Source: Paenibacillus sp. YPG26
GTDB taxonomy: Bacteria > Bacillota > Bacilli > Paenibacillales > Paenibacillaceae
Reading direction: 5' to 3'
Assembly: GCF_023704175.1 (NCBI RefSeq)
Contig: NZ_CP084530.1
Coordinates: forward strand, 368,501 to 432,500
DNA length: 64,000 nucleotides
Shown: positions 3,074-21,111 of the stretch, one piece after another
Position numbering within the stretch: the stretch's first letter is position 1
Layout of the letters: each line of letters opens with the position of its first letter
Notes under the pieces: model-generated
Databases searched by the model: none
Told to the model about the DNA's origin: nothing
Seen by the model: the letters and a program-made list of their open reading frames with translations, nothing else
Made by a program: the position numbers and the translations under genes

Positions 3074-3808
3074 ATGTCTAAACGTATCTTTAGTTTGTTC
3101 TTTTCATCGTTTATTGCACTTTTATTAGTTGTTCCAGTGGTGAATGCAGCTCCTCCGGATACTCATCTTAAACTGTTAAAGAAGAATACTGAAATTAAGG
3201 ACCAAACAGAATTGATTAATAGAGCAAAAAACAACATTTCTGATCTCCCTCTTGAAGAGCAGGTAAGTACAAAGGAAATTACTTCTTCTTCTAAAAAAAA
3301 GCTACTATATGTTACACAATATAAGACGGCACAATTATTGACTGAAGAGCAGGACACAACAAATGACAATATCATTTCTACTTACGCTCTAACAACTCTA
3401 GCAAGTTATAGTGCCTCAAAGTATAACAGTGGATGGGACAAAACTTCTTCGGTAAAAGCAGAATCAACAATTTACGTTACTTATGTTTATGATAGTCACG
3501 GAGTGAAATACTGGAAGTCGGCAGGGGTTAGTGGTGGATGGGGAGTATACGCTTCGGGCATTTCAGTAACTAATAAAAAGGTTATTTATGGAGTATATGG
3601 AGTTCCAGAGGGTGGTGGTTTAACTCAGGTTAGCGAAACTAAGTATCCCACTGGTTCCACGTTTGAATATACATCACCAACGTCATGGAAAGCTGTACTA
3701 CCAACAGCAACTGGTCAATTAGCGCCAAAAGTTGGCGTAACTACATCGGCCACATTATCTGGATTTGGTGATACTTGGAGTCTTGAGTTAGTAAACTTTT
3801 TTGCTTGA
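3074..3808 (+). CDS. Secreted protein of unknown function, possible bacteriocin-like
   Basis: A 244-residue protein starting at ATG 3074, with TTAGGAGG about seven bases upstream. Residues 1-25 form a clear Sec signal peptide (positive N-terminus, hydrophobic core, cleavage near VNA-AP). Residues 26-115 are charged and could be a propeptide. From about 115 the protein becomes Ser/Thr/Gly/Tyr-rich with repeated aromatic residues (YNSGWDKTSSVKAEST, VSGGWGVYASG) and looks like a beta-rich exported domain. There is no cysteine, catalytic signature or cell-wall anchor. From memory the NSGWD..SVKA pattern resembles proteins labelled geobacillin-26-like in Bacillaceae. I cannot verify that, so the function is left open. 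The gene ends at a strong terminator and sits in an AT-rich island. Confidence 0.8.
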   Translation: MSKRIFSLFFSSFIALLLVVPVVNAAPPDTHLKLLKKNTEIKDQTELINRAKNNISDLPLEEQVSTKEITSSSKKKLLYVTQYKTAQLLTEEQDTTNDNIISTYALTTLASYSASKYNSGWDKTSSVKAESTIYVTYVYDSHGVKYWKSAGVSGGWGVYASGISVTNKKVIYGVYGVPEGGGLTQVSETKYPTGSTFEYTSPTSWKAVLPTATGQLAPKVGVTTSATLSGFGDTWSLELVNFFA

Positions 3809-3878
3809 TAAATTTACTATACGCGCCTCATAAGACGCTCAGTAACTTTAAGAGACGCAAAATTGAATAGATACCCTT

Positions 3879-3912
3879 AAAACCGGATTCGATTTTGTGG
3901 ATTCGGTTTTTT
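3879..3912 (+). terminator. Intrinsic terminator after the secreted protein
   Basis: A stem of about 13 pairs (3879-3891 with 3898-3910, three G-U wobbles) around AAAACCGGATTC / GGATTCGGTTTT is followed by TT and a T-rich tail. Confidence 0.8.
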
Positions 3913-4058
3913 CCTTTTGAATTGCTTAAATTAAAGCTCTTATAGATGATACTTTAAATAAGTTCCAACTCAATAATCCAACTTGTGTAGAGAGCGGCCT
4001 AAATAGCTCTCTATCTGACACTGGTCAAGACCCCATTTAGTAGACATTAAAAAAACAC

Positions 4059-4943
4059 CTAGGCTGCAAACTGGCGTCGGTAGTCTACCGGCGTCAGTTT
4101 ATCTAATTTACGCTGTGGTCGTCTTCGGTTGTAAAATCGTATGTATTTCTCGATTCTTCTTTGTGCCTCAGCCATTTTTCGGATATCATAAGGATAGAGT
4201 CCTTCCGTTTTGAGATGCGAGAAGAAGCTCTCCATAGAGGCGTTGTCTAGACAATTGCCCCGGCGTGACATGCTGATTTGGGCGCCAACCTTTGGCAGCA
4301 TGTCGTGGTAAGCATGAGACGTGTACTGGAATCCCTGGTCGCTGTGAACGACCAATCCGGTCACGTCTTTTTGCTTGGCAAATGCTTTGGCAAACGTCTG
4401 TAGAACCAACTCATTGTCGTTACGTTCGCTCAGCTGGTAGGCAACAATTTCGTTGTTGAACAGATCTTTTATTGCTGAAAGATACAGCCAGCGTTCACCT
4501 ACACGGTATTGGGTCACATCCGTCACCCATTTCTGGTTTGGTTTTTCCGCTGTAAAGTCTCGCTTCAGTAAGTTCTCTGCTACTCGTTCCCCAGTTTGGT
4601 ACGCAGGGCTTACCCGGCGTTTACGGCGAATACTGGCCTGAATGCCGAGTTTTTGCATAAGACGCAATACCTTCTTGTGGTTCATCCAAATGCCGTCATC
4701 CTTCCACAAGAACAATTGGAGCTGGCGGTACCCGTATTTTCCTTCGTAACGCTTGTAGACTTTACGGATTTGTTGTTTGGCTTCGGCGTCGCGGTCGTTT
4801 CCCTTTCGCTTCAAATAGGCATAGTAACCGCTTTTGGAGACGCCAAAGAGTTGGCATAAGTCTGCAATTTTCCCTAGAGTTGCCGCTTTCTCGATGAGCT
4901 TAAAGCGTTCTTCCTTGCCTCCTGCATCCAGATTTCCAAGCAC
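4059..4943 (-). CDS. IS3-family transposase OrfB (DDE integrase domain)
   Basis: A 294-residue frame with the HTH_21 region at the start (LCQLFGVSKSGYYAYLKRKG) and an rve integrase core. The DDE triad is visible: D in WVTDVTQYRV, D in VHSDQGFQY, and E in NASMESFFSHLKTE. OrfB has no independent strong ribosome site. The frame begins exactly after an A-AAA-AAG slippery heptamer in orfA (plus-strand positions 4943-4949). A -1 slip there joins ..NDMLKK to VLGNLDAGG.., giving the OrfAB fusion that acts as transposase in this family. Length and motifs look complete. Confidence 0.95.
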   Translation of the reverse strand: MLGNLDAGGKEERFKLIEKAATLGKIADLCQLFGVSKSGYYAYLKRKGNDRDAEAKQQIRKVYKRYEGKYGYRQLQLFLWKDDGIWMNHKKVLRLMQKLGIQASIRRKRRVSPAYQTGERVAENLLKRDFTAEKPNQKWVTDVTQYRVGERWLYLSAIKDLFNNEIVAYQLSERNDNELVLQTFAKAFAKQKDVTGLVVHSDQGFQYTSHAYHDMLPKVGAQISMSRRGNCLDNASMESFFSHLKTEGLYPYDIRKMAEAQRRIEKYIRFYNRRRPQRKLDKLTPVDYRRQFAA

Positions 4944-5209
4944 TTTTTTAACATGTCATTCTCCCGCTTGAGCTTTTGGACATACCGGTCTTGATCGATA
5001 TATTCTTTCCGCCTTCCCCGCTGATCTAACAGGCCATACTCACCTAGTTCCCGGTATTTTCGCATCCACCGCTTCATTCGATCTTTGTCCTGAATGCCCA
5101 GATGTTCGTTGATTTCCCGATATGTCCATTTCTCCTCAACGTGAAGCCGAATCGCCTCTAACTTTAATTCTTCCGAATACTGTTTGAGTTTCTGTCCTTT
5201 AATCGCCAT
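4874..5209 (-). CDS. IS3-family OrfA (helix-turn-helix, leucine zipper)
   Basis: A 111-residue protein. I chose the ATG at 5209 (MAIKGQKLKQ) because AAGGGG lies just upstream. A longer frame to 5257 runs into the terminal repeat. Residues ~10-60 form the HTH that recognises the IS ends (YSEELKLEAIRLHVEEKWTYREINEHLG). Residues ~85-105 form a coiled coil (VQKLKRENDMLKK) used for multimerisation. The 3' end overlaps orfB by 70 bases and contains the slippery heptamer, so part of the product should be read through into OrfB. Confidence 0.93.
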   Translation of the reverse strand: MAIKGQKLKQYSEELKLEAIRLHVEEKWTYREINEHLGIQDKDRMKRWMRKYRELGEYGLLDQRGRRKEYIDQDRYVQKLKRENDMLKKCLEIWMQEARKNALSSSRKRQL

Positions 5210-5505
5210 AAAAATGCACCCCTTAGAATTCATCGGAATAACCAGGGGTTTTTCCAATGTCTATTCTAAGGGGTGCACTTCAACACCTTATTAGGGGGTT
5301 ATTTATTAGTACTTTAGTAAAGATTTAACAGATCAATTTTTAGTTTGAATCCGTGCAATATCACAGTGTATCTGAAATGAATCTGACGGATGCAAAGGCT
5401 GAGGTAGAATCATAATTTCACAGTTAGCACTAACACTTCAGAATCTCGGACAATCTTATGTCACGCTCGAGAGGCTGCTTAGTATATGTTGGTCTAAAGA
5501 AGGGG

Positions 5506-5530
5506 GCCGGAAGCGGCGCAGCCTTCCGGC
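5506..5530 (-). terminator. Hairpin downstream of the helicase gene
   Basis: GCCGGAAG (5506-5513) pairs with CTTCCGGC (5523-5530). It lies just past the helicase stop and is followed on the minus strand by a mixed C/T tract. The same hairpin is conserved in the duplicated copy at 1699-1723. Confidence 0.55.
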
Positions 5531-5554
5531 AAGACAAGCAAGGACGTGCCGCAA

Positions 5555-7903
5555 TTAGACCGGCACGTCCTTGCGGCCCCTGTGCATGGGCTTCCCGCAC
5601 AGGGGGCAGACCTTCGCGGCGAGGCCATGGTCCCTCGCCGTAACCCGGGTCCAGGCGATACAGCCTGGACCTTGGCACAGCCAGGCGGCGACGCTCTCCG
5701 TGCGCGTCGCCGCCGCTGCACCGCCGCTGCGGGCGCTTCGCCCGTCCGCAGCGCGGCTCCCGCTGCGGGCGTAAGCCACGCCCGCAGCCACTTCCCTTCG
5801 AGCGCGCGAAGCGCTCGAAGGGGTGGCCGCGCCTTCGGCTGCATCGCCGCCGAAGGCCGAGAGCAGAAAGCGCGAGACGGCCGCTTTCTTGCCGCGGTAC
5901 CTTGCGGGGGAGCTGATGATCAGCTCCTCCTTGGCGCGGGTGATCGCGACGTAGGCAAGCCGCCGCTCTTCTTCCAGGGCGGCTGTCCCCTTGGAGGCAC
6001 CGCCCACTTCGGAATAGGCGGTGTCCTTCATGCGGTCGGCTTCGATCGCCGAGCTGTGCGGCAGGCTGCCTTCGATGGCGCCGATCAGCATCACAACCGG
6101 GAACTCAAGCCCTTTGGACCGGTGGATGGTCATCAGGGCTACACGGTTCCCCTGTTCCCGGGATTTGTCGCTGCTCTGCTCCCGGCTCTTCTGGATCACA
6201 TCGCTGATGAATCCAAGGAAGCCTACTACTGTATCGAAGCGATCTGCAGAAGCTTCCAGTTCATCCAGCATCTCCTTAATCATTTCCTTGTGCTGGGTCA
6301 GCAGCTTCCGTTCATCCGCCTCGACATAAGCATTGTAGAATTTCTCTCTCATCCGGGCGATGGCCGCCGCTGGTCTCATCCCGGAGAGCGTGCGGATCAG
6401 CTCAAGCCGGTCCTGGATCTTGGCCAGCTGGAAGTCCTTAAGCCCGGACAAGGTCAGCAGATGAACCAGCGGGCCTTTCTTGGCCCGAATCGATTCCTGC
6501 TGGACAATATGGGACATGCCCCGTTCCCGGTTGATATAGAGCGTTGGGAGCACGCTCTCCATCGCGGTGAAATCCCGCCGGTTGAGGCCCAGTCTTAGGT
6601 GGTCCACAAGCGGGAGTACTAGGGCATTCTCATAGAGGAGCTGACCATCTCCATATTCAATATATGGAATCTCCCGGATCATGAGCTGCTCCAGAATGGC
6701 CCGGTTGTTGCTGGTTGCCCGGTAGAGCACGGCGTAGTCCCCATAATTCCGTCTGCCGGCCCGAACCTCATGCTCAATGCGGTCGAGAGCCAGCCGCGCT
6801 TCTTCGTCACTGGAGAGCGGGCGCGTGTACATCGGCCCCGAAGCTCCTGATCTAACCGCCTCCAGTGTCTTGCTTCTGCGGTGCTTGTTGTGCCGGATTA
6901 CTTCATTGCCAAGACCGACAATCCGTGTCCCGGAGCGGTAGTTAATAGTAAGCGTAATGACTTTGGCCTTCGGGTAAGTCTTCTCGAATTCCAAAATATA
7001 CTCGCTGCGCGCCCCGTTAAATGAATAGATGGTCTGATCATCATCGCCAACCACCATGAGATGATCCTGCGGGGCGGCGATCAACTTGACCAGCTCATAC
7101 TGCAGATGGTTCGTGTCCTGGAACTCATCCACCATAATATAACGGAAGCGGTCCTGAATGGTGCGCAGCAGGGAGGGACTCCCCTTCAGCAGCCGGTAGG
7201 CCAGGATCAGGACATCATCGAAGTCCATCTTCTCGTGATCGAGCTTCCACTGCTCATACTGCAGTAGAATGCGTTTGGTCTCCCGCTCGGTCACACTGTC
7301 TTCAGGCATATCGGGGAGATCTACCAGATTGGTCTTGTAGGAGGAAAGCATGGACAGCAGTGTCTCCGGCTGATAAGCATCCTGAAGACCCATTTCCCGC
7401 ATAATCTGCTTGAGCAGAATGTGCTGTCTGCGGGTCTCGCTCCAGATCTCCAGCTCATTGCCCTGCCTGCGAATCAGCTGCAGGAAGAAGGAGTGGAATG
7501 TCCGCGCCTGCAGGAGACGGACATCGTGCGGATGAATGCCCGGCAGAACGGCAATCCGGTCGCGCATCTCCTGGGCGGCCTTGCTGGAGAAAGTCAGCAG
7601 CAGAATTTCCCGCGGATCGACACGTCTTACCGACAGCAGATAACCGGTGCGGCAGATCAGGACGGAGGTTTTGCCGGAACCGGCCCCGGCCAGGGTCAGC
7701 AGCGGTCCCTTGAAATGGCGCACCGCTGCAATCTGCGACGCATTCAGCAGAATACCGCTGGCTTCCAGCGTACGGAAATAACCGGCATCCGGATCGCCTC
7801 CGCCGACAATCTCGCGGCTGGTCCTGGCAGCGGCCACCCTGGCTTCGGGAACGTGCTGCCGGGCCGCGCCCGCGGGTATTTTATTGAAAATGGATTCTCC
7901 CAT
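5555..7903 (-). CDS. UvrD/PcrA-type superfamily 1 DNA helicase with C-terminal zinc ribbon
   Basis: A 782-residue ATP-dependent 3'-5' DNA helicase. Walker A GAGSGKT is at ~74-80, Walker B VDEFQD at ~257, motif III GDDDQTIY follows, motif V is TIHRSKGLEFP, and motif VI YVAITRAKEEL lies near 654. After the helicase core comes an Ala/Arg/Ser-rich linker of ~60 residues, extremely GC-rich in DNA. It is followed by a zinc ribbon (CQGPGC..CPLCGKP, residues ~740-778) that replaces the usual PcrA C-terminus. I chose the ATG at 7903 because AAGGTGAG is four bases upstream; an ATG at 7918 lacks a ribosome site. It probably unwinds DNA in repair or replication-conflict clearance, and the ribbon may contact RNA polymerase or DNA. 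It is a single gene convergent with the upstream island. Confidence 0.93.
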   Translation of the reverse strand: MGESIFNKIPAGAARQHVPEARVAAARTSREIVGGGDPDAGYFRTLEASGILLNASQIAAVRHFKGPLLTLAGAGSGKTSVLICRTGYLLSVRRVDPREILLLTFSSKAAQEMRDRIAVLPGIHPHDVRLLQARTFHSFFLQLIRRQGNELEIWSETRRQHILLKQIMREMGLQDAYQPETLLSMLSSYKTNLVDLPDMPEDSVTERETKRILLQYEQWKLDHEKMDFDDVLILAYRLLKGSPSLLRTIQDRFRYIMVDEFQDTNHLQYELVKLIAAPQDHLMVVGDDDQTIYSFNGARSEYILEFEKTYPKAKVITLTINYRSGTRIVGLGNEVIRHNKHRRSKTLEAVRSGASGPMYTRPLSSDEEARLALDRIEHEVRAGRRNYGDYAVLYRATSNNRAILEQLMIREIPYIEYGDGQLLYENALVLPLVDHLRLGLNRRDFTAMESVLPTLYINRERGMSHIVQQESIRAKKGPLVHLLTLSGLKDFQLAKIQDRLELIRTLSGMRPAAAIARMREKFYNAYVEADERKLLTQHKEMIKEMLDELEASADRFDTVVGFLGFISDVIQKSREQSSDKSREQGNRVALMTIHRSKGLEFPVVMLIGAIEGSLPHSSAIEADRMKDTAYSEVGGASKGTAALEEERRLAYVAITRAKEELIISSPARYRGKKAAVSRFLLSAFGGDAAEGAATPSSASRARREVAAGVAYARSGSRAADGRSARSGGAAAATRTESVAAWLCQGPGCIAWTRVTARDHGLAAKVCPLCGKPMHRGRKDVPV

Positions 7904-8057
7904 CAAACTCACCTTCATTTATTCGTACATATATTTTTATCAGCTTATTAGCATACCTCTATTCTTCCAAACATACAATAAGTAGAGCACTGGGAAGTGT
8001 GCCAAAGCAGAGTTTAGCCGCCTGAATGCTGGAAAATTAATCATTTATAGTCTGCGA

Positions 8058-8086
8058 TTGTAAATCTAGCAGGGTTAAGTTAAGAT
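8058..8086 (+). promoter_or_regulatory. Predicted sigma-A promoter of thiC
   Basis: TTGTAA (8058-8063), a 17-base spacer and TAAGAT (8081-8086), placed just ahead of the hairpin and TPP aptamer that would open the transcript. Confidence 0.5.
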
Positions 8087-8088
8087 AG

Positions 8089-8132
8089 TATAGAAGTTGA
8101 ACTTGTGAACTGCTTATAGTTCAACTTCTATA
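8089..8132 (+). repeat. Perfect 14-bp inverted repeat ahead of the TPP riboswitch
   Basis: TATAGAAGTTGAAC (8089-8102) and GTTCAACTTCTATA (8119-8132) are exact reverse complements with a 16-base loop. It lies at or just after the predicted thiC transcription start, 14 bases ahead of the aptamer. It could be a 5' stabilising hairpin or a protein operator. Confidence 0.75.
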
Positions 8133-8146
8133 CCGACAACTGCATA

Positions 8147-8238
8147 TCAAGCGGGAGCTCAAGGTTTTGGGCTGAGAGGATAGGAATTCCACTATCGACC
8201 GTTATACCTGATCTGGGTAATGCCAGCGGAGGAATTGA
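8147..8238 (+). ncRNA. TPP (THI-box) riboswitch
   Basis: The conserved aptamer blocks are present in order: GCGGGAGCTC, then GGGCTGAGAGGA (8169-8180), then ACCTGATCTGGGTAATGCCA (8206-8225) and GCGGAGGAATTG. These form the thiamine pyrophosphate-binding three-way junction. Downstream, AAATGGAC (8238-8245) can pair with GTCCATTT (8301-8308) around a smaller GAGACC/GGTCTT helix. This gives alternative structures just before the thiC ribosome site, so control by attenuation or ribosome-site masking is likely. High TPP should switch thiC off. Confidence 0.95.
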
Positions 8239-8332
8239 AATGGACGAAGTCTGTCTGCTTCAAGAGACCCTTTTTAGTGTCTGCTAAGAGGTCTTGTTAT
8301 GTCCATTTACACGCTCGGCCTTTCTCGGATAA

Positions 8333-10126
<1,794 letters not shown>

Positions 10127-13400: not shown

Positions 13401-14718
13401 CACAGGTGGCGGAGGTTCGGGTGGTGGCGGCGTACCGGCTCTGCCTGAGCAGCCTGATGAAGCAGCAGGACAAGGCTCCTTCAATGATACCGCACCGGGC
13501 TTTGAGTACGTGCCTGCTTCGGATGAAGTGAAGAGCACCCGGCAGGAAGGACAGGAGCAAGCTGTGCTCAACGTGACTGCCGACATAGCCAGCAGTGCGG
13601 TAGGGCGGATGTCATCAGCAGATAAAGTCTGGTTGATCAGACTTGATCATGAAGCTGATGCATGGAAAGTTACTTATCCTCTTAGTGTGCTAAGAAATGC
13701 TCCAGCTATATCGGGTGCGGGTATTAAGCTTAGTACAAGTGCGGGAAGCTTTACGCTTCCGTTATCGGTGCTTAAGGCGGGCATGGTAACTGCCCGGACA
13801 GGAACTTCAGCTGAAGGCTGGAGGGTCGAGATTACAGTCAAGCGGGCAGATGCAGCCGGGCATGCACAGTGGAGCCAGGCGGTCTCCAGATCGGCGGCAG
13901 GCAACCTGCTTCAGCCGGTTCACTTCGAGGCAGCTTTGACGAACAACGTGGAGAGGGTGGCGCTGCAGGACTTTGGCCGGGCTTATGCGGCTCGTACGCT
14001 AAGACTTCCTGCCGGGCTTCCGCAGAATTGGACTGCGGTTACCCTCGGTCCGGATGGAGAGCTTCTCTTTGTCCCGGCTGTCAAGGTGAAAGAGGATGGT
14101 TATGACGCCGTTCAGATTATGACTACTCATACCAGCCTGTATGGTATTGTTGCAGCCAGCAAAAGCTTCCCTGATCTTAACAGCCACTGGTCAAGAGCGG
14201 ACGTTGAACTGCTCGCTTCCAAACTCCTTGTTAAAGGGGTGTCTGCAAGCAGGTTCGAGCCGAATCGTCAGGTTACCCGGGCTGAATTCGCCACATTATT
14301 GGTGCGCGCACTAGGGCTGAGCTTGACCCAGAACCAGACAAGCTTCAAGGATGTTAAGCCAGGAGCCTGGTATGCGGCGCCAATCGAATCGGCTTATCAA
14401 TCTGGCCTGATCCGGGGAACGGGTGCTAACCAGTTCAAGCCTGATGCTCCGGTCACCCGGCAGGAAATGGCGGCGATGCTCGGTTCCGCCATGGATCTGC
14501 TGGGCAGACAGAAGCCGGACAGCGGAAGTGGCATTGCGATCTTCAAGGACCGGGACACGGTAGCTCCTTGGGCAGCATCATCCGTAGATACGGCTGTCCG
14601 AGCTGGACTGCTGCAGGGAAGCGGCGGCCTGTTCAGACCGGCAGCCCCATCTACCCGGGCGGAAGCGACCGTGGTGCTGAAGCGCCTGCTGGTGTTTGGG
14701 CAACTAATGACTAAATGA
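10438..14718 (+). CDS. Secreted M4 (thermolysin-like) metalloprotease with SLH cell-surface anchor
   Basis: A 1426-residue secreted zinc protease. I chose TTG 10438 because GGGGAGG lies ten bases upstream and a signal peptide starts right there. Order: signal peptide (1-~35), FTP and PepSY propeptide (~60-220), and M4 catalytic domain (~290-595) with the zinc motif HEITH at ~413, the third ligand Glu in NESFSDLFG at ~437 and the catalytic His in DNGGVHTNSG at ~508. Two ~100-residue repeats beginning D-T-x-APxFxxGYP follow (~600-830), then a beta domain, a Gly/Ser linker (~935-1000), another beta region and three SLH domains (~1243-1425). Ordinary bacillolysins stop after the catalytic domain, so this is a wall-tethered version. 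Its 3' end is duplicated as debris at 19447-19576. Confidence 0.95.
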   Translation: MKSNKLTRMLMVILSAVCITNGAWGMGTVQAFAGEEQIAVQPSSGEGQQTEDKSRFYKDITSPSLASDSSVLNFLKENKEITGLTDPQTNLKLIDKKQDKIDQTHLLYQQQYQGIPVYGKYMRVHLDENKQVQEVASRTEPEKAVMPDQLTASISASQAVNILKQWIEDQEGTEISWDSADAGQQVLRAPGPTAKLIIYPGDQGYRLAYEVNVTYLKPHPGKWTAYVDAGNGSIMDEYSTSYQARSLNPSNMTTGVSTGYNGDSKSLNIYKEPSSGKYQLLDITKPMWQMYTDTDRGVFTYGYGGTDSFGKIYYENIESSSTAFSDRQAVDAHFNAGKVYDYYYTKLGRNSVDAQGSPIRSIVHIPDLWSATNQGGAWDNAAWFGGYMLYGDGSGSSRGGFDCLSCGLDVVAHEITHGVNEKSANLEYQNQSGALNESFSDLFGALIESNYDSADTKWWLIGEDLRQDRRALRNMRNPGDSSVLSPQPAHMSDYVYLPNDSTHDNGGVHTNSGIPNRAGYLMVANLEPLLGTAGAKNAVASMAYDVLTNYLNATSNFVDAANGYESAAQNYVKAHSELQYSRQQIIQAVTSAWNSVGIQTADTAAPAFTQGYPRIGTVTDVSAEVVLNVDEASKVYAKVQPAADPAPTLGDLKMAASQSASAYQDLTLTFSNLNPQTSYVVYLAAYDTTGNVSSAPVKVSFVTKQQVKPADTTAPVFANGYPKASAVTDNSLHVLVKTDENAAIYALPVPADQSKPTREALQQLAPTIVAAGQEADLYFDKLSPDQDYIIYFLAKDNAGNTQTSLTEVPVHTAAQYAGEPVLTLLNPVIQEDLSNDGTVSATQSLYVDHGTFVQDITGGVVLEGLPAGLGYEAVRSSDQLVLIRLTGKALRHTHADDTVVTVKVKSGYITGVASEMTAGIFTLDFMDPVTVPADPPGGGSGGTGSGDGSGGSVPGGSTDGGSGGGGIPGGSTDGGSGGGSGGGTSGGSTGGGGSGGGGVPALPEQPDEAAGQGSFNDTAPGFEYVPASDEVKSTRQEGQEQAVLNVTADIASSAVGRMSSADKVWLIRLDHEADAWKVTYPLSVLRNAPAISGAGIKLSTSAGSFTLPLSVLKAGMVTARTGTSAEGWRVEITVKRADAAGHAQWSQAVSRSAAGNLLQPVHFEAALTNNVERVALQDFGRAYAARTLRLPAGLPQNWTAVTLGPDGELLFVPAVKVKEDGYDAVQIMTTHTSLYGIVAASKSFPDLNSHWSRADVELLASKLLVKGVSASRFEPNRQVTRAEFATLLVRALGLSLTQNQTSFKDVKPGAWYAAPIESAYQSGLIRGTGANQFKPDAPVTRQEMAAMLGSAMDLLGRQKPDSGSGIAIFKDRDTVAPWAASSVDTAVRAGLLQGSGGLFRPAAPSTRAEATVVLKRLLVFGQLMTK

Positions 14719-14793: not shown

Positions 14794-14822
14794 AGCAGCG
14801 GAGAAATCCGCTGCTGCCTTTA
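14794..14822 (+). terminator. Hairpin after the M4 protease gene
   Basis: AGCAGCGGA (14794-14802) and TCCGCTGCT (14807-14815) form a perfect 9-bp stem with a GAAA tetraloop, followed by GCCTTTAT. Confidence 0.7.
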
Positions 14823-14900: not shown

Positions 14901-17312
14901 CTATTCTTCCACTTTGAGTAAAAGTGCAATTGAGTCTCTACTAATCGTTTTTTTCATGTAAAGGGAAGCCGCCAAAAGTAAAACGTAAACAACAAGTAAA
15001 ATCGCAAGAAGAATAGCAATATAATCCTTCGTCGGGTAGGATAGTCGATTTAGAGTAAGGAAAATTGTATACAGACCGGCACTAATAAGAGCGGATAATA
15101 CAAAATAAACATGAATTTCTAGCAGGAGATAGGTGTATACTCCCTTAACCCGCATCCCTAGAGATCTATAGATCCCCCAGTATCTTTTATGAATCTGATA
15201 TTTCCCGTTCAACACGATGTAGATACAAGTAATTGACAAAAAGATAGCAATATAAAAGGTGAAGTTCCCCACTCTGTTTATTATATTTGCCATCCTGCTT
15301 GAGTCACTAATCAGATCAGGTACATGTTGAAATAACCCACCTGGAGTAGTAGCAGCCAATGAATACACCTGGTCATAGATATTCTGTGATTCCTCTTTTG
15401 ACAAGTGATTAGAGGTGTAGACACTTAGATCCTTATAACCCTTCGTAATACCTTTGCTCATTGCATATTTCTCATCAAGCACAAAGGTAATTTCATCTCT
15501 TTTAAGCGTGACATCCTCATAATGTTCCTCAAACGGCCCGACGATGACATTTGCAATCTGAAAGTCCCAGCTATGATTAACCGTTTTTCCCGTTTCGTCA
15601 AGAACGATCTTGGAAAGTGAAATGGTTTTTCCCACTAAAGCGTTCTTTTCGTCAGGTCGAATACCTGGTGAGTATAGGACTACAGGAGGAATGCCTTGGT
15701 CATCTCTTTCCTGCGGCAGATATCTTCTTAATTCATCTATTGGTTTAAGCACAAACCTAACATTTGGCAGAATGATATCATCCTCATATCCTGATTGTTG
15801 GTCTACCTCAAATTTTTGAGCCCAAGAGAGAATGAAAGGCGTAGCATAACTCCGTTTTATAACGGGCATTACATCCGTCATCGAAGGTTCTTTATCAATT
15901 CCTATGATTCCCTTTACACTCTGCAATTTGGCAACCTCTTGAGGTGAATAAGTAATATCTTGAGAAATAAGTACATTATGATGTTCGATTTTTTTAGAAT
16001 AGACATTCTCCTGCGAGGATAAGTAATAATCAATATCTGTCGTCCAGATACCAGCTGCTTCTTTAGAGAAGGCTAAAGCGAATAATACGACTACAATTGA
16101 GATGGTCATCGTCAGAAGCGATAATAGAGTTCTTTTAGGATAAAGGAAAAGTTGTCTAAGTAACTGCTTTATATGGAAATTTCTTACATTGTCCACTAAG
16201 TCATTCAATAGTGTGTTGGAGTGGCTTATAACTGTATCAAAGTTTTGTTTCATACTCTTGCTACGTTGGGTGAGAACAGAAAGTATAGAAGACAAAATAA
16301 TTAGGATATAAATGACAAAAAACCATATTAGGGAACCTGCGGTTAGACCAGAAAAGATAGTTGACCCGTTGGTAGTTCCGATGGTAATTAAATATTGAAA
16401 TAGTAAAAAAAGGGGCAAAGATAATAAGGTTCCCACCAAAAAAATAAAGGTCGTCTGGTAAACAGTTATCTGGTAAAGGTGACGACTTGTACTTCCCAAG
16501 GAGCGAAGCACGGCATAATTAAAATTACGGTTTGCATTAAAGAAAGAAATTAATGTTGGTAAGCCTAGTAAGGAGATGAGTAGAATAACTGTCTGAAGAG
16601 ACATAGATATTTTTGTTAATGCATCAAGATCCTTTAATCCGTTATAGATTAATCGTTCATTTACAAAACCTTGTTTATCATTGTTATTGACTATGTTATA
16701 AGCAGTACCATAGTTTTCATCAGGTGATTTTTCATTGTCATAAGGAATTAGGAAATGACTAGCTTTCTCCGAGAACCTTTGAAAGATGAATAGATTTGGG
16801 AATTGGACTTTCCCTCCATCTATCGACCATCTTGCAGAGTAATTTTCTACAACTCCAACTAATTTCAGGTTCTGTGTCTTTCCGTGCACCTTAACACCGT
16901 GTGCTTTACCTATTTTCCAGTTTGGGTTGATTAGGTTTAGGTAATGAGCTTCGATAGCAACTTCATGCTCTGAAGTTGGCCACCTACCAGACTTAAGACT
17001 AACATGTCCTAGCTCAACAAACTTCGAGCTAACCCATCCTATTGAAGCCTTACGGTTGGTTTCTGGTAAATTTATCGATCCAGTTAATACAAATTGTCCA
17101 TATGATGCTTTGGAAGAATCATTCTTTCTGTCTAGTAACACACCAGAAAACTCACCGTATTGTGAAAACGCATTTTGTTTAATGTTCGATTTAATTATTT
17201 CCGTAGAAGAAAAGATAGCAAGAACTGAAGATATTACAACTGCAAAACATATACCCATGATGATTAGCCGCTTTTTCCTAGCTAACAAGAGTTTAACTGC
17301 CAAATTGACCAT
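14901..17312 (-). CDS. FtsX/MacB-type ABC transporter permease
   Basis: An 803-residue membrane protein with the two-block architecture of large ABC permeases. A transmembrane helix at ~15-40 is followed by an extracytoplasmic domain. Then come three helices (~250-360), a juxtamembrane helix and a second extracytoplasmic domain (~415-690), and three final helices (~690-790). I chose the ATG at 17312 because GGAGGAG lies four bases upstream; it overlaps the end of the ATPase gene by 20 bases, so translation is coupled. Such permeases export peptides or lipoproteins or release antimicrobials from the membrane rather than import. The AT-rich composition sets it apart from the protease gene next door. 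The operon order is secreted protein, VanZ-like protein, ATPase, permease. Confidence 0.88.
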   Translation of the reverse strand: MVNLAVKLLLARKKRLIIMGICFAVVISSVLAIFSSTEIIKSNIKQNAFSQYGEFSGVLLDRKNDSSKASYGQFVLTGSINLPETNRKASIGWVSSKFVELGHVSLKSGRWPTSEHEVAIEAHYLNLINPNWKIGKAHGVKVHGKTQNLKLVGVVENYSARWSIDGGKVQFPNLFIFQRFSEKASHFLIPYDNEKSPDENYGTAYNIVNNNDKQGFVNERLIYNGLKDLDALTKISMSLQTVILLISLLGLPTLISFFNANRNFNYAVLRSLGSTSRHLYQITVYQTTFIFLVGTLLSLPLFLLFQYLITIGTTNGSTIFSGLTAGSLIWFFVIYILIILSSILSVLTQRSKSMKQNFDTVISHSNTLLNDLVDNVRNFHIKQLLRQLFLYPKRTLLSLLTMTISIVVVLFALAFSKEAAGIWTTDIDYYLSSQENVYSKKIEHHNVLISQDITYSPQEVAKLQSVKGIIGIDKEPSMTDVMPVIKRSYATPFILSWAQKFEVDQQSGYEDDIILPNVRFVLKPIDELRRYLPQERDDQGIPPVVLYSPGIRPDEKNALVGKTISLSKIVLDETGKTVNHSWDFQIANVIVGPFEEHYEDVTLKRDEITFVLDEKYAMSKGITKGYKDLSVYTSNHLSKEESQNIYDQVYSLAATTPGGLFQHVPDLISDSSRMANIINRVGNFTFYIAIFLSITCIYIVLNGKYQIHKRYWGIYRSLGMRVKGVYTYLLLEIHVYFVLSALISAGLYTIFLTLNRLSYPTKDYIAILLAILLVVYVLLLAASLYMKKTISRDSIALLLKVEE

Positions 17313-17991
17313 GATACTCCTCCAGTGTCTCAATTTTCCCGTCATTTATGGTCAATTCAATATGATCTTCTTCAATTATTTTCTCTTCGTGCGTTACAAG
17401 AACAAGTGCAACCTCCCTAATTTTTACGGTTCGTGTAAGCAGTTCTGCGATTATTTTACTAGTGGAGGCATCGAGACTGCCGGTAGGTTCATCTGCAAAA
17501 ATAATATTAGGAGAAGTAATCAGCGCTCTTGCTATTGCTACTCTTTGTTGTTCGCCACCGGACAACTGATAGGTTTTGCGGTGAAGCAAGGAACCAATAC
17601 CAATTTCGGAAGCTATATTTGAAATGTCTGAACCACTGATTTTACAACTACGGTTAAAAAACCGTGGGAGTTCAATATTCTCATAAACCGTTAGCTCAGG
17701 AATCAAATTCAGCGACTGGAATATAAACCCGAAATCCTCATTTCTTATTCTCGACTGCTCGTTATCTGACAATTCATAAAAGGACCTCCCTTGATAGTAA
17801 ACACTTCCGGAACTAGGTTTATCAATTCCACCCAATATGTTTAGCAAGGTTGTTTTACCCGATCCGCTTTTTCCCTTAATTACATATGTTTTACCCTTCT
17901 CTATCTCTATAGAACAGTGCGAAATCACTGCAGAATTAGTTAATGCTTTGTATTTCTTGCTGATTCCGGTAGCTTTTAAGATAACTGTCAT
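17293..17991 (-). CDS. ABC transporter ATPase (LolD/MacB type)
   Basis: A 232-residue nucleotide-binding subunit with Walker A GKSGSGKTT, Q-loop region FIFQSLNLIPELTV, signature LSGGEQQRVAIARAL, Walker B IIFADEPTGSLD and switch His VLVTHEE. It resembles ATPases that pair with FtsX-type permeases (LolD, MacB, BceA). AAGAGG precedes the ATG at 17991. The VanZ-like gene ends two bases upstream and the permease overlaps the 3' end, so the three genes form one transcript. Together with 14901-17312 it should form an export or antimicrobial-clearing pump. Confidence 0.93.
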   Translation of the reverse strand: MTVILKATGISKKYKALTNSAVISHCSIEIEKGKTYVIKGKSGSGKTTLLNILGGIDKPSSGSVYYQGRSFYELSDNEQSRIRNEDFGFIFQSLNLIPELTVYENIELPRFFNRSCKISGSDISNIASEIGIGSLLHRKTYQLSGGEQQRVAIARALITSPNIIFADEPTGSLDASTSKIIAELLTRTVKIREVALVLVTHEEKIIEEDHIELTINDGKIETLEEYHGQFGS

Positions 17992-17993
17992 GT

Positions 17994-18554
17994 CTATATA
18001 CCTCTTTTAGTCGATTTATTCAAATGAGAAGAATTCGGGATACCCAATTTTTTATGGAGGAACCTGACAATATAGAATCCAGCTATGCAGCCAGATGTAT
18101 TCAAAATAATATCATCAATATCAATCACTCTTCCGCTAATACCAACTAGAAACAATAGGAACTGTCCCAGTTCTATAATGATACTTATGAGTAGAGCATA
18201 AATAAAAACACCCGTACCCTTCATCAATCGGATGTTGTAGAATGCAAAAGCACCCATGGGGAATATAAGTAATAGATTACCCAAAACGTTCTGAATGGCG
18301 ACTCGTATCGAATGAAATTCGAGATAGCTAAGAATCGTCTTGAATGGTATGAAATTATGGAGAAAACGATCCGATGGCATATTACCTCTGATCCAAACTA
18401 TGTAAATCAGAGTTATACAATAGAGCATATAAAGGCCGAGGAATAGCTCCTTAAGAATATTAATTTTGGTTTTACGAATAAAGAATAGCCTTGCAATAAA
18501 ATATAGAATCAGTAACGGTAAGATGAAAGTAATTACATCTGCTGTATTAAGCAT
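17994..18554 (-). CDS. VanZ-like membrane protein
   Basis: A 186-residue protein with about five hydrophobic segments. It carries the VanZ-family pattern of polar residues in helices: IVWIRGNMPSDRFLHNFIPFKTI, then NVLGNLLLIFPMG, then IIIELGQFLLF and a short D-x-DD-I-x-N-T-x-G motif. VanZ proteins give low-level teicoplanin resistance by an unknown route; many homologues sit beside ABC pumps or lantibiotic genes. I chose the ATG at 18554, five bases after GGAGG; the frame is open to 18602. It is the first gene of the VanZ-ATPase-permease operon. Confidence 0.85.
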   Translation of the reverse strand: MLNTADVITFILPLLILYFIARLFFIRKTKINILKELFLGLYMLYCITLIYIVWIRGNMPSDRFLHNFIPFKTILSYLEFHSIRVAIQNVLGNLLLIFPMGAFAFYNIRLMKGTGVFIYALLISIIIELGQFLLFLVGISGRVIDIDDIILNTSGCIAGFYIVRFLHKKLGIPNSSHLNKSTKRGI

Positions 18555-18637
18555 GTTTGCCTCCAAATGTATCGAAGAATATAGTACCAAAACAAACCTC
18601 AAATTAATGAGGTTTGTTTTGGAATTTATTATACCCC

Positions 18638-19027
18638 TTATTGGTTGATCGTCCCGGAGCCAGTGACATTATCGGCATTCCCACCGGTCTTTACAACATT
18701 AATGGTATAGTTACCAGAGCTGATAACGCCGAAGTTTTTGGTCTGTGTGGTGTTGTCTGCTACAAGGCCAGATACTTTATAAGAGGTGAGCCAGTTTTTG
18801 TAAAGCTCGACAGAATATTTGTCCTTGTAGGGACTTACGTTTCCAGTGTGCCAGTAGGACTCTGCAGTAGCGGTTGTAGAAGTTGATTTATTCGAAAGAG
18901 AATGTACAGTTGTTCCAGAGATTTGAAAATCGATATCAAAACTATAGCTTCCACTATAAGCTGATACGGATACTGCGCCTACAAGAGTAGATGATAGAAC
19001 TAGAAGTGCCATTAGCTTTTTTTTCAT
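18638..19027 (-). CDS. Small secreted protein, candidate peptide antimicrobial or substrate of the neighbouring ABC system
   Basis: A 129-residue preprotein. The ATG at 19027 has AGAGGGA six bases upstream. A Sec signal peptide covers ~1-23 (MKKKLMALLVLSSTLVGAVSVSA, cut before YSG). The mature ~106 residues are Ser/Thr/Gly/Tyr-rich, have no cysteine and look beta-stranded. I recognise no family. The gene lies 83 bases upstream of the VanZ-ABC operon on the same strand. A small exported protein with an adjacent pump and VanZ protein recalls bacteriocin-plus-self-protection layouts such as the lactococcin-972 clusters, but the sequence itself does not match lactococcin 972. The function is unknown. 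Confidence 0.75.
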   Translation of the reverse strand: MKKKLMALLVLSSTLVGAVSVSAYSGSYSFDIDFQISGTTVHSLSNKSTSTTATAESYWHTGNVSPYKDKYSVELYKNWLTSYKVSGLVADNTTQTKNFGVISSGNYTINVVKTGGNADNVTGSGTINQ

Positions 19028-19446
19028 AATAAATCCCTCTAAATTAGTAATATTTACCACATTAATATAATAGTATAAATTGATCCATATTAAATCATTT
19101 TTATACTAATAAGTACTAAAGCACCAGCTAAATAAGTCATTTTTACTACATTTTTCAACGATTTCTATAATAACTATAAATAGTAAAATTTAGGGATTCT
19201 CTAGTAAGGACTTAACGACCCAAGATAAGCTGCTTTCCACTTGTCACAGAAGGTTATTAGTTCTGCTTTGCAGCATCTTCATCGTCGGATCGATATACGG
19301 ATAGAATACCTGTGAGTCCATCAGAGATAAACAGAAGGATATGCTATTTGCCCCGCTCCTTCACATCTTGGAGCAGTTATTTCCGATGTGAGCTTATTCA
19401 GTTGGTGTGGTATCGCATGTAAGCATACCTTGGCACCCTTGTCGGT
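19028..19446. other. Intergenic region upstream of the secreted-protein gene
   Basis: The first ~170 bases are very AT-rich and must hold the promoter of the minus-strand secreted-protein gene; TATACT and TATATT boxes on the minus strand near 19060-19085 are candidates without a clear -35. From ~19200 the base composition returns to that of the core genome. I see no intact gene there, only sequence leading into the SLH remnant. Confidence 0.5.
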
Positions 19447-19576
19447 GGTTACGGCTGTCCGTGCAGGACTGCTCCAAGGAAGCGGTGGCCTGTTCAGACC
19501 GGGAGCGGCGTCTACCCGGGCTGAAGCGACCGTGGTTCTGAAGCGCCTGCTGGTGTTTGGACAGCTGATGATGTGA
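19447..19576 (+). pseudogene. Decayed copy of the SLH-protease 3' end
   Basis: This encodes AVRAGLLQGSGGLFRP, then ASTRAEATVVLKRLLVFGQL and a stop. The same residues close the M4 protease. The DNA from TACGGCTGTCC (19450) onward matches 14589-14718 at roughly 87 percent, in the same orientation, and the match begins abruptly. No start, signal peptide or upstream SLH unit is present. It marks the far border of the AT-rich ABC/secreted-protein island. Confidence 0.85.
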
Positions 19577-19992: not shown

Positions 19993-21111
19993 ATGATTGA
20001 TTCTGAACTGATTTGGAACGCTTCTTTGTCCGAGCTTGAACGGGGCTATATGGAAAAGGATGACCTTTATATATGTATTTGCTGCGGGAAGAGCTTTGAG
20101 AAAGGGATTATCTATCCCGAGGATGATGTCCTGTACGAGACGAAGAAATATGTCCGTCTGCATATTGAGAAGAAGCATGGCTCCGCCTTTGAATATCTCA
20201 TCAGTCTCGACAAAAGCTTCACGGGATTGTCCGAGATCCAGAGCAATCTGCTGAAGTTGTTTTACCAAGGCAAGAGTGATAAGGAGGTGCAGCAGGAGCT
20301 GGGGAGCGGAAGCACCTCGACCATACGCAACCACAGGTTTGTGCTTAAGGAGAAGGAGCGGCAGGCCAGAGTATTTCTCGCTATTATGGAGCTTCTAAGG
20401 GCGAAGGATAAGCATGCGCCGGCCGTGCTGAAGGTTCAGGCTGGCGGCAGCAAGGATGAACGCTACCGGATTACAGAGACCGAGAAGGATAAGGTGCTTG
20501 CTAAGTATTTCCCATCGGGGACAAGAGGCCCGCTGAAGAGCTTCTCGATGCGGGAGAAGCAGAAGCTGATTATTCTTAACGAACTGTCCAAGCGGTTCGA
20601 GCCGGACCGGATCTATTCGGAGAAGGAAGTTAACGAGATATTGAGCGCGGCCTTTGAGGATTATGCGCTGCTGCGGCGGTATCTGATTGAATACGGATTC
20701 ATGAACAGACAGCCGGACGGAAGTGAGTATTGGCTTGCCGGGCCGGCGGCGGAGCAGGAGGGGAATGCGGTGGACCGCAGACAAGAATTGAAGCTGATGG
20801 CGAAGGAAGTCAAGACTCAGGCAGGCGTATTTCAGATCAGGAACACGAAGAACGGTAAGCTTTATGTGGACAGCACGCCAAATCTCAAAACCATTAACGG
20901 CCAGGAATTCTCGCTCGAAATGGGCTCTCATATGTGCAAGAGCCTTCAGCAGGAATGGAGTGAGATGGGCAAGGAGAACTTCGTGATCGAGGTGCTTGAG
21001 ACGGTGAAGGAGAAGGAAGGCGTGCAGCTGGATATCAAGGATACGCTGAAGAAGCTGAAGGAGAAGTGGCTTAAGGAGCTTCAGCCGTTCGGGGACAGAG
21101 GTTATAACTAA
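19993..21111 (+). CDS. Zinc-finger / HTH / DUF2087 / GIY-YIG-like regulator
   Basis: A 372-residue multidomain protein. Residues ~25-60 carry CICCGKSF..HIEKKH, a probable C2H2-type zinc site. Residues ~75-130 read like a LuxR-type helix-turn-helix (LSEIQSNLLKLFYQGKSDKEVQQ). Residues ~165-250 match DUF2087 (LIILNELSKRF, YSEKEVNEIL, DYALLRRYLIEYGF, DGSEYW). Residues ~275-350 resemble a GIY-YIG module (AGVFQIRNTKNGKLYVDSTPN). The canonical GIY-YIG tyrosines are partly replaced, so nuclease activity is doubtful. The start follows GAGGT at a proper distance. Probably a DNA-binding regulator; its target is unknown. An isochorismatase-family gene follows 25 bases later on the same strand and may share its transcript. 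Confidence 0.8.
   Translation: MIDSELIWNASLSELERGYMEKDDLYICICCGKSFEKGIIYPEDDVLYETKKYVRLHIEKKHGSAFEYLISLDKSFTGLSEIQSNLLKLFYQGKSDKEVQQELGSGSTSTIRNHRFVLKEKERQARVFLAIMELLRAKDKHAPAVLKVQAGGSKDERYRITETEKDKVLAKYFPSGTRGPLKSFSMREKQKLIILNELSKRFEPDRIYSEKEVNEILSAAFEDYALLRRYLIEYGFMNRQPDGSEYWLAGPAAEQEGNAVDRRQELKLMAKEVKTQAGVFQIRNTKNGKLYVDSTPNLKTINGQEFSLEMGSHMCKSLQQEWSEMGKENFVIEVLETVKEKEGVQLDIKDTLKKLKEKWLKELQPFGDRGYN

Follow-up and report, generated by a model that had tools for sequence, protein, structure and literature searches.

We examined a window of 64,000 nucleotides (64 kb) from Paenibacillus sp. YPG26, in which four adjacent genes encode a small secreted protein, a VanZ-like membrane protein, an ATP-binding cassette (ABC) ATPase and a large permease. 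This cassette had been proposed in a first-pass annotation, made from the sequence alone, to be a candidate antimicrobial and self-protection system. According to the open reading frame (ORF) list, the four genes all lie on the minus strand at the coordinates below, and the cassette has a GC content of 37.2% versus 50.4% for the window, forming a low-GC island in agreement with the four AT-rich, same-strand genes of that annotation. The features of the locus are the following.

18638..19027, minus strand: secreted-protein gene, 129-residue precursor (ORF with homologues, no family match, structure model)
17994..18602, minus strand: VanZ-like membrane protein, 202 residues as listed (PF04892, 65.4 bits)
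17293..17991, minus strand: ABC ATPase of the LolD/MacB type, 232 residues (PF00005, 117.6 bits)
14901..17345, minus strand: duplicated permease of the FtsX/MacB type, 814 residues as listed (PF02687 in two stretches, 53.1 bits)
18587..18622, minus strand: stem-loop between the secreted-protein gene and the VanZ gene (folding; the terminator scan flags the plus strand only)
14794..14815, minus strand: terminator-like hairpin closing the four-gene run (consensus scan alone)
14566..14710, plus strand: 3' end of a thermolysin/surface layer homology (SLH)-like gene, the upstream copy flanking the island (84.8% identical to the downstream copy across 145 aligned columns)
19428..19571, plus strand: second, diverged copy of this 3' end, across the island from the first (sequence comparison; match to the flank of a relative, L074)

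The secreted protein has a signal peptide with cleavage after VSA, both judged by eye, leaving a mature part of 106 residues without cysteine, as first described, and with a net charge of 0. No family matched the protein of the window in Pfam or NCBIfam at E≤1, no sequence match was found in the PDB, and among 28 aligned members of its family only scattered weak matches were seen, each in one to four members (best E 0.0018). By its sequence, then, the protein appears to belong to an uncharacterised and undescribed family, as had been suspected. In the homologue search, scoring was confined to the 7,986 candidates with the most words in common; a single-sequence scan of genome contigs gave no relative, phages (query P0015) and viral contigs gave no match, and the plasmid search returned one record, from Paenibacillus cellulosilyticus, for the permease and for query P0015. 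The protein P0013, named from P. cellulosilyticus, reads the same as that of locus L009, and we take it to be the G101 locus. Among the titles and abstract openings listed from openly licensed papers, none gave an earlier description of the cassette, which is weak evidence of novelty.

AlphaFold predicted a beta-sandwich with confidence, the predicted local distance difference test score (pLDDT) being 94-98 in blocks from residue 31 onward. In the fold search this arrangement recurred in many proteins unrelated to one another, with surface, capsid or binding functions; subunits of endospore appendages were among them. The fold, the high conservation of the protein and its lack of a uniform charge would suit a surface or matrix system, in which the beta-sandwich is a structural or binding protein that the ABC transporter and VanZ place on, or release from, the envelope; we consider this quite unlikely in view of the distribution described below. 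A secreted carbohydrate-binding effector, directed for example at a wall or environmental glycan and travelling with a resistance module, seems to us very unlikely.

The three membrane-associated genes matched their predicted families, as the first-pass annotation had stated. The PF04892 score of the VanZ-like protein is well above the cut-off of 30.1 bits, which places its domain in the VanZ superfamily, and 21 positions are invariant in an alignment from nine loci. Because the listed TTG start sits inside the hairpin, the true start is likely the ATG at 18554, behind a GGAGG motif, which would give 186 residues. For the ATPase the best NCBIfam models were LolD (208.1 bits) and L_ocin_972_ABC (191.9 bits), both below cut-off, and the nearest relative of solved structure is LolD; in a PADLOC scan of the cassette the ATPase alone was matched, to generic ATPase models. 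The permease likely starts at 17312, giving 803 residues. Its structure model, built on eight rows, reached a mean pLDDT of 64.2 (below 60 in the membrane helices) and a predicted template modelling (TM) score of 0.53, and comprises two extracellular domains, which are better predicted, and about eight membrane helices of low confidence. The best fold match was the 799-residue chain A of Escherichia coli YbbAP, taken as YbbP going by chain length, followed by MacB, a pneumococcal non-canonical ABC transporter, LolCDE, BceAB and YtrEF. All TM-scores were low (0.20-0.28 for the best rows) and the model is of moderate confidence, so that the relation holds at the superfamily level only. With a LolD/MacB-type ATPase and an FtsX permease carrying extracellular domains, the pair has the features of a type VII (MacB-like) ABC transporter, as far as this permease model allows. 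The word "exporter", used for the pair in the first-pass annotation, is probably wrong because the secreted protein appears to carry a Sec signal itself and the permease model is similar to MacB, YbbAP, LolCDE and BceAB. The substrates of several of these lie in or at the membrane.

We then asked how the four genes are distributed in a set of 195 genomes and in a class set, a sample of 398 genomes; in the class set up to 10 candidates per genome were scored for the secreted gene and two first-look candidates for the permease. The secreted gene was found in 7 of 195 genomes, a figure including its own genome and a weak match, G123, and in 4 of 398 class genomes, its own included. The G123 candidate (L007/L013) was dropped before the loci were counted, having 28% identity, two stops and an E-value of 0.0027, with nothing found by the profile in L013. 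The eleven loci retained were the window and L008-L012 from the 195-genome set, L027-L029 from the class sample, and L022 and L023, which were found with a 10-row alignment of closer members, the 28-row alignment having no usable pattern stretch. VanZ is in the cassette at 10 of these 11 loci and an intact ABC ATPase with a large permease at 9. The order secreted protein-VanZ-ATPase-permease is seen at five (window, L008, L009, L011 and L012), L010 has the order secreted protein-ATPase-permease-VanZ, and L022 and L027 have secreted protein-VanZ plus a divergent ATPase-permease pair. Homologues lying mostly apart from VanZ and ABC genes, the outcome that would have spoken against the first-pass proposal, were thus not what this search returned; its expectation that they sit beside these genes is borne out in full at most loci and in part at L028, L023 and L029, the last at a contig edge. 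All four are genuine genes that travel as a group.

Some of these loci depart from the common layout. At L028, which is without VanZ, a 429-residue membrane protein with a sub-threshold permease-prefix match occupies the place of VanZ (8517-9806). At L023 the secreted gene and VanZ are accompanied only by a truncated, divergent ATPase. At L029 the contig ends about 120 bases past the secreted gene; the homologue there (7411-8555) is very divergent, with 25% identity to the window protein and two cysteines, yet is paired with VanZ. At L011 transposase-like ORFs, recognised by eye, lie between the secreted gene and VanZ (6726-7771).

In the reverse test the same two genome sets were searched with the permease, which was found in 7 of 195 and 5 of 398 genomes, its own genome being counted in both. 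Twelve permease loci were obtained, including L022, which was found through the secreted gene. The secreted gene is present at nine; L021, L065 and L066 have VanZ and the ABC genes, and the secreted-family profile finds no secreted gene in them. Dependence in this sample is therefore one-way, the secreted gene following the membrane genes. These loci without a secreted gene, like the retention of the secreted gene without a working ABC transporter at L023, weigh against a surface or matrix system. At L021 a 733-residue beta-lactamase-like ORF, named by eye, lies directly before VanZ-ATPase-permease at the usual place of the secreted gene (4149-6350). In L065 and its relative L066 VanZ is part of a protein of about 460 residues (PF04892, 71.9 bits in L065), and the L066 permease is divided between two ORFs (6011-8432). 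Just upstream of VanZ and the ABC genes in L065, a gene resembling an extracytoplasmic function (ECF) sigma factor and a membrane-anchored partner were recognised by eye (3530-4956), which suggests envelope-stress control at that locus.

Loci of this kind raise the possibility of an envelope-stress or antibiotic-resistance module, in which external antibiotics active on the wall are detoxified by VanZ and the ABC transporter, with the secreted protein working beside the pump in an accessory role, as a decoy or sensor. The three of 12 permease loci with VanZ and ABC genes alone and the L065 neighbours fit such a module, as does the YtrF stretch (E 0.0083) that the permease profile matched in the PDB, where no other sequence reached E≤0.01. 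VanZ has also been described as conferring lipoglycopeptide resistance (PMC7146870). We nevertheless regard this explanation as unlikely: it does not readily account for L023, which keeps the secreted gene without a working ABC transporter, and reading the neighbouring ORFs by eye, with no profile search made, brought no adjacent two-component system to light. Nor does it readily explain a strong stem-loop found after the secreted gene.

That stem-loop was assessed by folding the 65 bases past the stop codon of the secreted gene and comparing them with mononucleotide shuffles. A z-score of -3 or below was obtained at 8 of the 11 loci, compared with 5 of the 59 gaps that served as controls (Mann-Whitney p=0.001); these were 20-150 bases long, separated other pairs of mechanically called ORFs on one strand, and came from these loci or related ones. 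A smaller, earlier control of 34 gaps, with energies only, had a mean of -11.9. The stem-loop of L028 is weaker (z -2.1), and by the same folding test L011 and L027 have none after the secreted gene. Stem sequences mostly differ among loci, with a stretch in common between the window and L009. In the window the terminator scan flags the stem on the plus strand only, the minus strand having no T run behind it; no minus-strand terminator is called, so that a role of the stem in attenuation or mRNA processing is putative. Over the region the consensus scan found 6 terminator-like hairpins versus 3.8 expected, and the promoter scan was no better than shuffles (15 found versus 16.2 expected).

The cassette looks foreign and was most likely acquired horizontally, given its low GC content and the empty sites in two same-genus relatives, L074 and L075. 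The island lies between the thermolysin/SLH-like gene and a gene at 19993-21111. When the 3' end of the thermolysin gene was used as the query of a DNA search, 3 of 59 genomes matched (its own, G027 and G017). In both relatives where the flank was found, L074 and L075, the cassette is absent and about 0.4 and 0.14 kb separate the thermolysin-type gene from the 19993 homologue; in L074 a 98-residue ORF on the opposite strand occupies this interval. Since two diverged copies of the 3' end flank the island, and the sequence past the 19428-19571 copy matches the downstream flank of L074, the island may have arrived by recombination together with a diverged copy of the thermolysin-gene end. This end was not found near any of six permease loci (L008-L012 and L021). 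Such a patchy, island-borne distribution is a further point against a surface or matrix role for the secreted protein.

Taken together, these data are best explained by the cassette being a new protein bacteriocin with VanZ and ABC immunity, to which we give a probability of about 0.5. The first-pass idea of an antimicrobial with self-protection is strengthened by the VanZ-ABC-only loci, by the stem-loop that follows the structural gene, by horizontal acquisition of the cassette and by a parallel with lactococcin 972 loci drawn below; linkage, in arrangements that differ, supports it at 10 of 11 loci for VanZ and 9 of 11 for the ABC pair, as does the patchy occurrence of the secreted gene among genomes, while toxicity, target and immunity roles remain putative. 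In the model we propose, the precursor would be exported by Sec and cleaved to the folded beta-sandwich, which would be released or retained at the surface and would bind, in the envelope of related Gram-positive cells, either a precursor or a polymer of the wall. VanZ would protect the producer by lowering this binding at the surface; a reduction of lipoglycopeptide binding to cells by VanZ is reported (PMC7146870). The MacB/YbbP-like ABC transporter would add protection by using ATP to pull the protein, or the complex it forms, mechanically from the membrane. The title of a paper on YbbAP speaks of hydrophobic compounds being extracted from the inner membrane (PMC12646458). The stem-loop could keep the secreted-gene transcript in excess over those of the immunity genes. 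Four observations weigh against this bacteriocin model: the secreted protein is highly conserved; its distance correlation with the partner proteins is weak (0.25-0.38, versus 0.84 between ATPase and permease); L023 has lost the ABC transporter and kept the secreted gene; and L028 has no VanZ.

A more specific proposal, which we hold tentatively, is that Bacilli have here a new bacteriocin class made up of folded proteins, without relation to lactococcin 972 and with VanZ as its dedicated immunity protein. If so, protection against surface-binding proteins would be a native role of the VanZ superfamily, and the VanZ of glycopeptide resistance would be a by-product of bacteriocin immunity. The bacteriocin reading would also add a family of protein antibiotics that known-family predictors would miss, and would supply a natural partner for asking what VanZ proteins do, in cassettes movable into Bacillus subtilis. 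Loci without VanZ (L028), without a working ABC transporter (L023) or without the secreted gene (L021, L065 and L066) form a natural series for separating the two proposed protection steps.

Elsewhere in the window, a thiamine pyrophosphate (TPP) riboswitch (8141-8251, 62.2 bits) lies upstream of a thiC-like gene, named by eye, at 8357-10126. It was the only Rfam match at gathering score over the 64 kb, in which no tRNA was found.

The cassette can be set beside several known systems. Like the type VII transporters MacB, YbbAP, LolCDE and YtrEF, it combines a LolD-like ATPase with FtsX domains and extracellular domains between membrane helices; it differs from them in that no MacA-, TesA- or LolA-like partner was noticed by eye in the cassettes. 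With the VanZ of glycopeptide resistance it shares a clear PF04892 domain, whereas no vanHAX or vanRS genes were noticed by eye and its VanZ is paired with a secreted gene. BceAB-type detoxification of bacitracin and antimicrobial peptides likewise uses an FtsX-type ABC transporter, and BceAB is among the permease fold matches. The cassette permease is duplicated and not of the BceB type, and no two-component system was noticed among the ORFs flanking the cassettes, read by eye with no profile search for sensor kinases.

The closest parallel is with lactococcin 972 and streptococcin loci. The PF09683 family occurred in 24 of the 398 genomes of the class sample, and three such loci were read (L067-L069). 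It had no match in the secreted protein of the window (Pfam) or in its own genome, the secreted-family profile found nothing in L067-L069, and hhalign of the secreted family against 16 of the 29 listed PF09683 matches gave 22% over 7 columns, that is, no detectable homology; the absence of lactococcin 972 from the fold matches listed carries no weight either way. The cassette permease had no TIGR01654 match at E≤1, whereas those of L067 and L068 scored 270.5 and 243.5 bits (cut-off 189.35); hhalign of the permeases gave 29% over 81 columns, so that a remote FtsX-type link may exist. The cassette ATPase fell short of TIGR03608 (191.9 bits, cut-off 254.85; L067 ATPase 298.2). As all three proteins fell outside the lactococcin 972 families, the cassette would work like such a locus without being a member of it, and it differs further in having VanZ and a mature protein of 106 residues versus a family model of 62 positions. 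In PMC4055356, lcn972 orf2-orf3 are called immunity genes, in places putative ones. PMC11796350 states that the B and C functions are unverified in any lactococcin 972 locus, and one section heading there reports that streptococcin B inhibits strains expressing scbBC, so that the immunity label is insecure even in lactococcin 972 loci. The same source counts scbBC without scbA in 157 of 571 pneumococcal genomes. Lactococcin 972 loci thus have immunity-only variants, as the cassette does; they also set a small secreted gene next to a small ABC ATPase and a large permease that spans the membrane many times, and L068, one of the three that were read, shows a strong stem-loop behind its structural gene, as in the cassette.
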